This document shows positions 58,674 through 64,000 of a stretch of 64,000 nt of DNA, in pieces. The stretch comes from Cyclobacterium plantarum. GTDB taxonomy: Bacteria > Bacteroidota > Bacteroidia > Cytophagales > Cyclobacteriaceae. Below the pieces are notes generated by a model. That model did not search any database. It was given only the letters and a program-made list of their open reading frames with translations, and was not told where the DNA came from. The stretch is from positions 1 through 64,000 of the forward strand of contig NZ_JAANYN010000002.1 of the NCBI RefSeq assembly GCF_011290685.1. Direction: 5' to 3'. The translations under genes were made by a program, and so were the position numbers. The stretch's first letter is position 1. The number at the start of each line of letters is the position of its first letter.

Positions 58674-59296
58674 TTTTTTTATTGCTTGAGTAAACCCGTT
58701 GCGTATTTATTGCATTTTTGGTTGGTGGTCCCGTTAAAATCCCCAATGCTCTCCGCCTCGGCGGAGGGAATAGCTGAATAGCTGATTTAATGCTGAATTG
58801 AAGTCATTTCTAGTGTTATATTAATCGTAAATTGACGGATAAAGTCTTTTGGCTAAAGCCAATGAGGCTGCAATAGCTTTTTCGCCTACAGCTATCAGGC
58901 AATTGAGGGAAAGAAATCCTAATTGCAAAAAAAGATCAAAAAATCATTACTGCCACTCCAAAAGAGATCAGCACTTTTCAGAATATAGCATTCCGTAAAT
59001 CGTAGACCTAACCTTAATCAATAGGAATGCGGCTTTAGCCCATTCCCTAGAGTAAAATCACAAACCCCAGGCTTTAGCCAAAATGGATAGAAGAGTGAAA
59101 TATGGATTTGAATGGTTATGGATAAAAGGTTTGGCTAAAGCCAATTTACCTAAAAAACCAACATGCCCACAGCTAAAGCAGTGGGCAATTGATAATAAAA
59201 CTCCAGGTTCCAAATGATTACTCTTCAAATAGGAATGCGGCTTTAACCAATTCGTTAATTAAATTCTTACCGAAACACGCTGGATCCAAGGTGAGG
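58674..59296. repeat. hairpin unit 1 (intergenic repeat array)
   Basis: After the LacI-type gene there is a short GC-rich hairpin (CTCCGCC/GGCGGAG, 58751-58766). A set of small palindromes then follows. H1 TTGGCTAAAGCCAA is at 58849 and 59131. H2 GCCTACAGCTATCAGGC is at 58884. H3, AGGAATG ... CATTCC around GGCTTTAGCC, is at 59023. H4 GGCTTTAGCC is at 59070. H5 TGCCCAC ... GTGGGCA is at 59164. The same order recurs in units 2 and 3. The elements look like REP sequences; no REP-associated transposase gene is in the window. Confidence 0.8.
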
Positions 59297-59461
59297 TTAG
59301 GCACTGGGCTTTCGCTTTTCCCTTTTGGTCTTTTTTTCGAAATAGGTAACAATTTCCTCAGGGCTTAAATCCATGATGTCCTTTGAAATTCGATCTCTCT
59401 GCTCACGCATAAATTTAACCGCGTCAAACGTTTTTTCCTTATTTTCTGCTTTAGTCTTCAT
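59297..59461 (-). CDS. 54-residue partner of PIN toxin (putative antitoxin), copy 1
   Basis: 54 residues, highly charged: MKTKAENKEKTFDAVKFMRE, then QRDRISKDIMDLSPEEIVTYFEKKTKREKRKPSA in continuation. It is shorter than most automatic cut-offs. Its ATG lies within the last codons of the PIN gene (11-nt overlap), so the two are translated together in toxin-first order. Small charged helical proteins of this kind accompany PIN proteins in Bacteroidota and are read as antitoxins; this role is inferred. A nearly identical second copy lies at 60379. The stop overlaps a GTTAGGCAC motif. Confidence 0.75.
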   Translation of the reverse strand: MKTKAENKEKTFDAVKFMREQRDRISKDIMDLSPEEIVTYFEKKTKREKRKPSA

Positions 59462-59915
59462 ATTTCAAAAGTTCTCTTGGTGAACGGATGTCTATTTGTT
59501 TATAGCCTTCTGCCATGTTTACAGAATTATAGCCAATAATCTTAACCACGTTTACAATATGTTTGAAATTCCAACTGACCAAAATATCAGCATTGTGAAT
59601 AGTTGCAATTGCAATGTGGAGGCAATCTGCATAAGATGTTTTTCCTACGACATATTCATCGATGTATCTTTTTGCGAGTTTGGCAGATTCGATATCCGAT
59701 TTAACGAATTCAGTTGAGATTTCTGGTAATGATTCAGCCCGTTGCCTTATTTTTTCAGGAGCGGAGCTCAATTCGTCTCTGGTTACATTCGAAAAAATAA
59801 TGGAAAACTCATTTTTATCAATCCGATCGAACAAAGGTTCGGTAAACTCTTTGAACTCCTCATCAAAAAGCCCCCCAAAAACCGAAGTGTCCAAATAAAT
59901 TCGCTGTTTCTTCAT
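59451..59915 (-). CDS. PIN-domain protein (VapC-like toxin)
   Basis: 154 residues. PIN motifs: IYLDTSVFGG with D9, FSNVTRDELSSAP with E48, TSYADCLHIAIATIHNADILVSWNFKHIV with D97 and a terminal acidic/Asn pair. These acidic residues hold Mg and cut RNA in VapC toxins. The small partner gene follows with an 11-nt overlap, the reverse of the common antitoxin-first order. The pair sits between GTTAGGCAC (59296-59304) and its exact inverse GTGCCTAAC (59973-59981), inside a repeat array. In the next repeat unit the PIN gene is missing. Confidence 0.85.
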   Translation of the reverse strand: MKKQRIYLDTSVFGGLFDEEFKEFTEPLFDRIDKNEFSIIFSNVTRDELSSAPEKIRQRAESLPEISTEFVKSDIESAKLAKRYIDEYVVGKTSYADCLHIAIATIHNADILVSWNFKHIVNVVKIIGYNSVNMAEGYKQIDIRSPRELLKYED

Positions 59916-60378
59916 TTTCTAAATTTACGTAATTCCATCGATTTTGTATATCTAAATCGGTATTTTCACCTTGTGCCTAACTTGTATATCTGTTTACCAA
60001 AGGGAAGATTTGGCTAAAGCCAATGATGCTGGCATATCTTGTTGCTAACAGCTATTAGGCAATTGATTACAAAATTCCAGGTTCCAAATAGATACTCTTC
60101 AATAGGAATGCGGCTTTAGCCCATTCCTTAGAATAGAATTGCAAACCAGAGGCTTTAGCCAAAATACATGAAATAGCAAAATGTGGATCCGATAGGTTTA
60201 TGGATAAATGATTTGGCTAAAGCCAATTTACCTAAAAAACCAACATGCCCACAGCTAAAGCAGTGGGCAATTGATAATAAAACTCCAGGTTCCAAATGAT
60301 TACTCTTCAAATAGGAATGCGGCTTTAACCAATTCGTTAATTAAATTCTTACCGAAACACGCTGGATCCAAGGTGAGG
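59916..60378. repeat. upstream flank of the PIN gene and hairpin unit 2
   Basis: It contains the core-like GTGCCTAAC (59973-59981) and a 25-bp flank (59979-60003) shared with 62747-62771. Hairpins follow: H1 at 60010, an H2 variant near 60038, H3 at 60104, H4 at 60151, H1 at 60213 and H5 at 60246, in the same order as unit 1. From 60220 the sequence is nearly identical to 59138 onward. Confidence 0.8.
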
Positions 60379-60543
60379 TTAGGCACTGGGCTTTCGCTTT
60401 TCCCTTTTGGTCTTTTTTTCGAAATAGGTAACAATTTCCTCAGGGCTTAAATCCATGATGTCCTTTGAGATTCGATCTCTCTGCTCACGCATAAATTTAA
60501 CTGCGTCAATCGTTTTTTCCTTATTTTCTGCATTAATCTTCAT
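60379..60543 (-). CDS. 54-residue putative antitoxin, copy 2 (no toxin)
   Basis: 54 residues, intact, differing from copy 1 only near the N-terminus (MKINAENKEKTIDAVKF). The bases directly upstream correspond to the region in front of the PIN start codon of copy 1, so the PIN gene has been removed precisely between two CTTCAT sequences. The frame, length and stop context are kept, which suggests recent origin or selection to keep a solitary antitoxin. Confidence 0.7.
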   Translation of the reverse strand: MKINAENKEKTIDAVKFMREQRDRISKDIMDLSPEEIVTYFEKKTKREKRKPSA

Positions 60544-61025
60544 ATTCTAAAATTAGGTAATTCCATCGATTTCGTATATCTAAATCCGGAAGATTTGGCT
60601 AAAGCCAATGAGGCTAGAAAACCTTTATTGCCTACAGCTATAAGGCAATTGAGGAAAAGAAATCCTAATTGCAAAAAATGATCGAAAAATCATTACTGCC
60701 CCCTCTAACAGAGATCAGCCCTTTCCAGAATATAGCATTCCGTAAATCGTAGACCTAACCTTAATCAATAGGAAATAGCCCATTCCCTAAAGTAAAATCA
60801 CAAACCCCGGCTTTAGCCAAAATGGATAGAACAGCGAAATATGGATTTGAATGGTTATGGATAAAAGGTTTGGCTAAAGCCAATTTACCTTAAAAACCCA
60901 ACATGCCCACAGCTAAAGCAGTGGGCAATTAATAATAAAACTCCAGGTTCCAAATGATTATCCTCAATAGGAATGCGGCTTTAGCCCATTCCTTAGAATA
61001 GAATTACAAACCAGAGGCTTTAGCC
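60544..61025. repeat. hairpin unit 3
   Basis: H1 at 60595, H2 at 60628, a degenerate H3 at 60769, H4 at 60809, H1 at 60870, H5 at 60904, then H3 at 60969 and H4 at 61016. Sequence between the hairpins (for example 60661-60860) closely matches 58921-59125 of unit 1. No antitoxin or toxin follows. Confidence 0.8.
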
Positions 61026-61382
61026 AAAATGGATGAACGGAAAATCTATAGGGAAAGACATAATCCGGACGGCATTTTATCGGGCAATGAAAGATTGTTT
61101 TCAATACAGCGGAAGAGGAGCTAAATGCGATCAAAAAAGTAATGGTATTGATTTTATCTAATTTACCTATCAATTCATCTCACTTGAGAAGGCACAGATC
61201 CGAGTCCCCGTTTTCCTATTCCTATTCCCTCAAAAACTGCCCGTCCAGGTCATTCAGGCTGGCGCAAACTACAATCCAGTAAATCGCTAAGTACGAAACC
61301 CGTACCACAATGGTGTTAGAGCCTCAACCTGAACCATTTGGATCAGGTTGCGTTACTCGATTGTGGTTGGCAGTTTCATTTT
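61026..61382. other. intergenic, no gene; one hairpin
   Basis: No convincing coding sequence. A hairpin CAACCTGA/TCAGGTTG lies at 61325-61350, 33 nt downstream of the hypothetical gene at 61383, and could be its terminator or the stem of a degenerate cassette end. Confidence 0.4.
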
Positions 61383-63576: not shown

Positions 63577-64000
63577 TCAGGAATAAACCCCTATGCCAAA
63601 CAATCCCGCTGGCACCTTCTTTCCCGGATGCTTTAGCTGAAGGACCAGCTTTATTACCTTGACAGGGGTAGCAAACAGGATTTCATACCTGCTTTGGTGG
63701 TTGTTTTTTTCCTCATAAAGCAGGCTGCCCCGCTCATCGAGCAACCGAAACTCCCGCACACAAAAAGGCATCACCCTTTCATCATGGCCCCTCAGCGTTG
63801 ACTCCAGGGGATGATCAAAGTCGGTATCAAACCAAAGCAAAATTTTCCTGATTTTCTGCTGTTCCGGCCAGGAAAAAGTAAGGGTCGGTTCAGGGTCCGT
63901 TGGATCAGCCAGCCAGGCATTGGTTTGTATGGTTGGGCGAAAGCTGCCATTGAGCAGGTTTTCAGGGCTGTATAGTTGCAGTGATGGAGTACAACTGATG
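63577..64000 (-). CDS. FAD-dependent oxidoreductase, C-terminal part (cut by window edge)
   Basis: The minus-strand frame is open from the right edge to the stop at 63577 (about 140 codons). It aligns throughout with the C-terminal domain of the oxidoreductase at 41521: LQLYSPENLLNGSFRPTIQT versus LKMYAKENLFNGIFRP, then LLWFDTDFDHPLESTLRGHDE versus NLFFDTDFDHALESTLMGHPE, and KKVPAGLFGIGVYS versus ASVPAALFGILCY. The catalytic FAD domain must lie to the right. An apparent TTG start at 63840 is internal and not the gene start. Confidence 0.85.
   Translation of the reverse strand, partial: ISCTPSLQLYSPENLLNGSFRPTIQTNAWLADPTDPEPTLTFSWPEQQKIRKILLWFDTDFDHPLESTLRGHDERVMPFCVREFRLLDERGSLLYEEKNNHQSRYEILFATPVKVIKLVLQLKHPGKKVPAGLFGIGVYS

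Follow-up and report, generated by a model that had tools for sequence, protein, structure and literature searches.

Ordered arrays of REP-like hairpins in Cyclobacterium plantarum and their association with one clade of Y1 transposases in the Bacteroidota

Hairpin units and a PIN gene pair

The first 64,000 nucleotides of contig NZ_JAANYN010000002.1 of Cyclobacterium plantarum (hereafter, the window; the genome comprises 6.17 Mb in 37 contigs) contain, at 58849-61029, an array of six consecutive units of short palindromes. Each unit begins with the hairpin H1 (TTGGCTAAAGCCAA) and follows the order H1-H5-H3-H4, with some members degenerate or missing, and GCTAAAGC, or a variant of it, forms the centre common to the four hairpins. 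Here, we describe this array, a gene pair encoding a PIN-domain protein and a 54-residue protein that is embedded in it, and the association of its hairpins, which resemble repetitive extragenic palindromes (REPs), with one clade of Y1 transposases. A preliminary description of the window had reported hairpins in ordered tandem series. The ordered tandem arrangement is real, but it comprises six units rather than the three series described; of the five hairpin kinds that were named, H1, H5, H3, and H4 were recovered, while the presumed H2 is a degenerate H5.

All six units lie on the plus strand. Unit a (58849-59130) comprises H1 at 58849-58862, a degenerate H5 near 58884-58900, H3 from 59020, and H4 at 59070-59083. 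Unit b (59131-60009) has H1 at 59131-59144, H5 at 59165-59186, and H3 from 59228, followed by the gene pair; H4 was not found in this unit. Unit c (60010-60212) again comprises hairpins only, with H1 at 60010-60023, a degenerate H5 near 60044-60060, H3 from 60101, and H4 at 60151-60164. In unit d (60213-60594), H1 (60213-60226), H5 (60247-60268), and H3 (from 60310) are followed by an orphan copy of the 54-residue gene, and H4 was likewise not found. Unit e (60595-60869) carries H1 at 60595-60608, a degenerate H5, a short H3 from 60767, and H4 at 60809-60822, and unit f (60870-61029) carries H1 at 60870-60883, H5 at 60905-60926, H3 from 60966, and H4 at 61016-61029. Units a, c, e, and f thus consist of hairpins alone, unit b adds the PIN and 54-residue genes, and unit d adds the 54-residue gene alone, which is the gene content that had been described for the series. 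Successive H1 copies are spaced by 282, 879 (gene pair inside), 203, 382 (orphan gene inside), and 275 nucleotides (nt), as compared to close to 200 in a second cluster of the same genome (C36; see below).

The window encodes 13 exact copies of the core GGCTAAAGCC, all of which are within 58851-61025. When one mismatch was allowed, 22 matches were identified versus 4.56 expected, with 10 in the largest shuffle. Sequence between the hairpins is conserved as had been claimed: positions 59116-59415 and 60198-60497 are 99% identical, 58848-58954 and 60594-60700 are 91% identical, and 58953-59027 and 60700-60774 are 93% identical. Tandem Repeats Finder listed nothing in the array at its thresholds. 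The array is followed by a tail at 61031-61102 (plus strand), the central part of which is kept after the last H4 of several arrays (L031 8533 and 3739, in C36 of the same genome; L119 4321; L244 1888) and could be the true end of the element.

The gene pair of unit b lies on the minus strand. The PIN-domain gene (59451-59915; PF01850, 36 bits versus a cut-off of 23.6) encodes a putative VapC-like toxin, and the 54-residue gene (59297-59461), a putative antitoxin gene without a Pfam or NCBIfam match, overlaps its end by 11 nt. Relatives of the PIN protein (E 1e-20) were identified in 37 of 245 genomes of the family. A small gene overlaps or touches the end of the PIN gene in 28 of 29 fetched loci (L048-L076; no PIN frame was found in L058), which indicates that the two genes form a real operon-like unit. 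Scanned members of the 54-residue partner family had no Pfam or NCBIfam match above cut-off, and attempts to name the pair using NCBIfam or PADLOC returned marginal matches only and were abandoned.

The orphan gene (60379-60543, minus strand) follows sequence that lies upstream of the PIN gene in the intact copy. When compared to that copy, a segment of 454 nt that includes the PIN frame is absent between two TCTTCAT repeats located in the start regions of both genes, and a 43-nt gap is present further upstream. The same deletion junction was identified at an orphan gene for a 54-residue-like protein in the sibling genome G153 (L243), where no PIN relative was found in the E 1e-20 search of the 245 genomes. 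A natural orphan antitoxin-like gene has been kept at this site in both species.

Distribution of the hairpins and association with a transposase clade

Across the genome of C. plantarum, H1 occurs 32 times (0 in a reversed control) and the core GGCTAAAGCC occurs 110 times (19 in the control). Four clusters hold 93 of these 110 cores: the window, C31 (413.2-425.1 kb, grouped), C36 (42.8-54.5 kb), and C37 (27.4-34.3 kb). A cyclic order of H1-H5-H3-H4, with missing members allowed, fits 113 of the 117 neighbouring pairs in these clusters, as counted with hairpin patterns that were written after inspection of the arrays; the exceptions are three H3-H3 pairs and one H3-H5 pair. Among the 245 family genomes, H1 is present in 75, with the highest counts in Cyclobacterium, and the median core count of nine Cyclobacterium genomes is 60.

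Two further observations concern the clusters themselves. In C37 (L032 4353-12628), arrays with H1 spacings of 312 and 495 base pairs (bp) lie between three consecutive genes (408, 380, and 384 residues) that appear by eye to be paralogues; the one that was scanned had no Pfam match. A further repeat containing GAATAGCTGAAATAATCC was found next to arrays as well as at a site lacking one (L243 and L241, downstream of a LacI-family gene; L031 2645-2852), indicating that more than one repeat contributes to the mosaic structure of these regions.

A search for a REP-associated tyrosine transposase elsewhere in the genome, which had been proposed in the preliminary description, identified a Y1 transposase gene among the hairpins. 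PF01797 had six matches, of which one of the top two falls within the C36 array; no exact core was found within 1.5 kb of the other five. The C36 protein comprises 146 residues and contains the motifs DHCH, WQ, and YIRNQEEHH, the last of which conforms to the Y---Q--HH signature. It passes the IS200/IS605 profile NF033573 (63.7 bits versus a cut-off of 55) and falls below the REP_Tyr_transpos profile NF047646 (29.5 bits versus a cut-off of 80), and a profile comparison with solved structures places it nearest to ISHp608 TnpA and its relatives (2a6m, 2vhg, and others). Three other proteins of the same subclass (TnpA_Y1 subclass 1.2) are encoded in the genome (L038-L040); these belong to a sister clade, leaving the C36 gene as the single copy of its clade, and their flanks contain few, isolated inverted repeats. 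In another genome, three copies of a different Y1 gene with equal scores are spaced by 916 bp (G172:C1:281289-283525), perhaps as a result of tandem amplification.

Homologs of the C36 protein were identified in 121 of the 245 family genomes (E 1e-15), and the exact core GGCTAAAGCC was detected within about 1.5 kb of the best match in 29 of the 30 genomes where this match was at least 51% identical. Among these 30 loci (L077-L106), Y---Q--HH is present in all 22 genes found by pattern, and Y114, Q118, H121, and H122 are invariant in a 24-row alignment that includes six of the eight loci missed by the pattern. Of the 30 hairpin-flanked loci, 24 were used to build an alignment (A1) with which public species genomes were searched, and the best 80 of at least 538 relatives were retained. 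These 80 loci span Flavobacterium, Lacihabitans, Runella, Algoriphagus, Chryseobacterium, Pedobacter, Saprospiraceae, Bacteroidales, and others; the set overlaps the family set (L127-L130, L151, and L189 are genes L078-L081, L083, and L084), such that some genes appear twice in the tree described below.

In 76 of the 80 loci, the centre GCTAAAGC was found no more than 250 nt from the gene. Distal windows of equal length, taken wherever the contig was long enough, had it in none of the 80, and 20 first-order Markov shuffles returned a mean of 2.25 loci and a maximum of 9. In 58 of the 80 loci, a same-strand core starts at most 60 nt past the last matched codon (median of 12). Twenty subclass 1.2 loci of greater distance served as controls, and two of these contain the exact core in 3.5 kb. 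In a tree of 71 rows (28 of the 30 family loci, with L097 and L103 left out since the pattern did not find their genes, the 20 controls, the three other genes of C. plantarum, and every fourth of the 80 loci), a core lies within 300 nt in 48 of the 50 rows of one clade versus 1 of the 21 rows of its sister; the split has support of 100/99 in an analysis in which the bootstrap had not settled. Two controls, L207 and L213, place inside the hairpin clade. Within the flanks retrieved for the 80 transposase genes (up to 4 kb), neither PIN nor 54-residue relatives (E 1e-3) were identified. The link of the core to one Y1 clade supports the REP-like nature that had been suggested for the hairpins.

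The hairpins also show evidence of constraint. In a folding test on a single copy of each hairpin as single-stranded DNA, H5 (z of -3.7) and H3 (z of -3.9) were far better than shuffles, and H1 was modestly so (z of -1.6). Among 34 distinct rows of H5, in which the right-hand GGCAA is fixed by the anchor, 88.6% of stem cells pair as compared to 75.8% in shuffles, and 29 cells exhibit compensatory double changes as compared to 9.1; none of 500 shuffles reached either value. Pairing with slid partners was 32-52%. A short tag, T[GC]AA, is conserved directly 5' of the hairpin foot, both for H3 (T 1.0, C/G 0.88, A 1.0, A 0.96, T 1.0; 26 of the 80 loci) and, on the opposite strand, for H5 (T 0.95, G/C 0.86, A 0.81, A 0.88; 43 of the 80 loci), and the two tags point inward and face each other across the spacer. 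By analogy with IS608 and TnpA_REP, as treated in the available text of PMC8266576, we infer that this tag is a guide sequence. The 3' half of H5 (GGAGGCAATTCA and a few bases) was also observed as a short tandem array of many copies beside the transposase gene (L137 from about 4480; downstream in L181).

The window and C36 sites were compared in sibling genomes. At the window site, downstream of a LacI-family gene, no core was found in G123, G174, G195, G211, G245, or G247, and the contig of G238 ends early. G067 has an array without toxin-antitoxin (TA) genes at this site, and G153 has an array with the orphan gene noted above. In G195 and G247, sequence that is found at position 63584 of the window follows the LacI-family gene after 48 nt. 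At the C36 site, where C. plantarum has a unit, the PIN and 54-residue genes, and a second unit, the alignment shows one unit in G067 and G238. A junction between G153 and G123 that resembled an insertion with repeated GAATAGCTGAAAT was dropped since its flank recurs at C36.

Origin of the arrays

These observations suggest that the hairpins are probably REP-like elements of one clade of Y1 (HUH) transposases within TnpA_Y1 subclass 1.2. Each element would span about 200 bp and comprise the four hairpins in the order H1-H5-H3-H4. By analogy with IS608 and Escherichia coli TnpA_REP, the Y1 enzyme probably binds the hairpins on single-stranded DNA, with the T[GC]AA tag selecting the cut site, and has probably spread units into intergenic regions, where recombination would then expand and contract them to yield tandem arrays. 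The PIN/54-residue module inside the window array was duplicated along with its unit, and one of the two modules then lost its PIN frame, such that the putative antitoxin gene there is an orphan. The association with the clade, the order of the hairpins, the stem constraint, the tag, and the local duplications and deletion are observed, and enzyme binding, cleavage, and spread of the hairpins are what we infer by analogy.

Several results weigh against this explanation. Outside Cyclobacterium, core counts are higher in the 26 genomes with a clade member of at least 51% identity (median of 20.5) than in 30 genomes without one that were chosen by hand from a listing (median of 11.5; p = 0.0007), but the excess is modest, with control-subtracted medians of 13 versus 4 (p = 0.025), and six genomes (G007, G012, G025, G027, G030, and G036) have raised core counts despite having no close clade gene. 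Within Cyclobacterium, G123, G153, G211, and G238 contain 37-73 cores and no close clade member, such that loss of the transposase gene has to be assumed. The sibling comparison, in which the flank at the G153/G123 junction is itself repeated, returned no clean insertion with a defined target. Not every hairpin performs equally well either: single copies of H4 (z of -0.6) and the degenerate H5 (z of +0.2) folded no better than shuffles as single-stranded DNA, and an H5 anchored on GGCAATT follows the gene in only 39 of the 80 loci, a few of these rows not being H5.

The preliminary description had proposed a composite element in which hairpins and a TA module travel together. Restated for Cyclobacterium, the units would be the ends and the PIN/54-residue pair the cargo of a mobile element, both moved by the Y1 enzyme or by recombination. 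Both PIN genes of the family in C. plantarum lie inside hairpin clusters, which occupy about 0.54% of the genome when 1 kb is added on either side, and the PIN gene of G195, a third Cyclobacterium copy, is preceded at about 370 bp by a complete unit; the single units of G067 and G238 at the C36 site are as expected of such an element, although loss of PIN between direct units would look alike. The two PIN proteins of C. plantarum are, however, 54% identical with flanks that are unrelated by eye, and thus do not represent one recently moved element, and the fourth Cyclobacterium copy (G123) has no core in the 8 kb fetched. Outside the genus, no exact core was found within up to 1.5 kb of PIN in the 27 loci fetched of 54 matches. 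Given this result, the absence of the pair from the 80 transposase loci, and the sibling arrays that lack PIN, the composite was rejected as a general explanation. As a rule, then, joint travel of hairpins and TA module is not supported, and the pair is a local passenger rather than a defining part of the hairpin system; for the genus, we regard a composite element as unlikely. The opposite outcome that the preliminary description had envisaged, hairpins in random order with no link to TA genes, does not describe the data either: order is conserved, and three of the four PIN copies in nine Cyclobacterium genomes (both in C. plantarum and one of the two in siblings) lie in or beside units. This recurrence is unlikely by chance, with four copies as its basis, and arrays may favour such gene cargo. 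A broader proposal, in which the clade and its four-hairpin unit form a phylum-wide domesticated system for single-stranded DNA transposition that also moves unit-bounded DNA such as TA pairs, with arrays acting as sites of cassette capture, is one that we consider speculative and improbable.

The palindromes sit just past stop codons and between genes, as would transcription terminators or stabilisers of mRNA that are common in these intergenic regions. Such cellular hairpins would not be expected to follow one Y1 clade across distant families while being almost absent beside its sister clade, to keep a fixed order of four, or to conserve a foot tag next to the stem; we therefore consider this origin very unlikely. 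Rfam had no match up to E 1, and identification with a known RNA family was rejected. Simple tandem duplication, within the genus, of a neutral intergenic repeat that has no link to an enzyme would account for the local duplications of up to 99% identity in the window and for the 312- and 495-bp H1 spacings in C37. Given the phylum-wide association with the Y1 clade and the compensatory changes in the H5 stem, it is the least probable of the explanations considered, and we give it little credence.

Comparison with known systems

The gene pair resembles VapC-like PIN TA pairs in its PF01850 domain and in the small partner adjacent to the PIN end in 28 of 29 relatives. It differs in that the putative toxin gene comes first and in that the putative antitoxin had no Pfam or NCBIfam match above cut-off.

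The transposase shares with IS200/IS605 TnpA (IS608, ISDra2) its profile kinship to solved structures and a gene flanked by hairpins, and a tag 5' of the foot would fit the position of a guide. Such insertion sequences occur as several near-identical full copies at different sites, whereas C. plantarum carries a single gene of the clade; its arrays are formed by units that lack the gene, and the sibling comparison gave no clean junction and no defined ends. REP-like repeats are also known from the same phylum, namely the atypical hairpins of subclass 2.6, which has the Y---NP motif (PMC6006769, in the available text), and CGTC-tagged repeats (PMC3733652, likewise). We set these apart by description rather than by letter-wise comparison of the hairpins; CGTC was not seen at the feet of the 26 H3 and 40 of the 43 H5 sequences examined.

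In our search of the open-access literature, with subscription journals and preprints outside its scope, no report of hairpins for subclass 1.2 was found, and no title on repeats or transposases was among the matches listed for the core string. Five Bacteroidetes terms are absent from the available text of PMC2817692, and that of PMC11194056 places a RayT gene near abeS in Chryseobacterium and does not contain 'palindrom'. Subclass 1.2 is defined by Y---Q--HH and, in the available text of Quentin et al. (2018; PMC6006769), is generally without typical terminal IS200 structures and is entered in a table as 'no' for REP. The transposase described here fits this subclass in its Y---Q--HH, DHxH, and WQ motifs, its length (146 residues versus a median of 148), its low copy number, and its occurrence in Bacteroidetes. 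It departs from the 'no REP' entry, given that the core lies near 76 of 80 genes and in 48 of 50 clade rows, whereas the sister clade agrees with that entry for this core (1 of 21 rows). That a clade within a subclass listed without REPs has core hairpins points to an unrecognised REP-like partner of the clade. One clade of a subclass listed without partner repeats thus seems to possess such repeats, whose core, order, and foot tag are kept across the Bacteroidota, and the hairpins provide defined substrates for binding and cleavage tests.

A parallel in presumed working is the REPtron, the combination of a TnpA_REP or REP-associated tyrosine transposase (RAYT) with REPs, bacterial interspersed mosaic elements (BIMEs), or REP doublets (REPINs) that characterizes class 2 (Quentin et al., 2018). 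Both comprise a low-copy Y1 gene flanked by palindromes with copies elsewhere between genes, a short conserved tag at the hairpin foot, and related hairpins in inverted orientation, and the palindromes beside the gene are multi-copy in the genome (110 versus 19 in C. plantarum, more weakly so outside the genus). Clustering of REPs near the transposase gene is described for Marinomonas in the available text of PMC8266576. The enzyme here is of class 1 (Y---Q--HH) and lacks the Y---NP motif, and its tag is T[GC]AA rather than GT[AG]G; neither GTAG nor GTGG was seen directly at the foot of the H3 and H5 sequences examined, and identification of the hairpins as classical GTAG REPs was rejected. 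With both the Y---NP motif and the GTAG tag tested and neither found, the system would be REPtron-like in its working yet is no member of class 2. It further differs in its unit of four ordered hairpins and in having one core across the phylum, unlike class 2, where the available text of PMC6006769 assigns each gene its own REP family. The apparent partner repeats of this class 1 clade make the proposed origin of REP systems from IS200/IS605 enzymes testable from the IS200 side.

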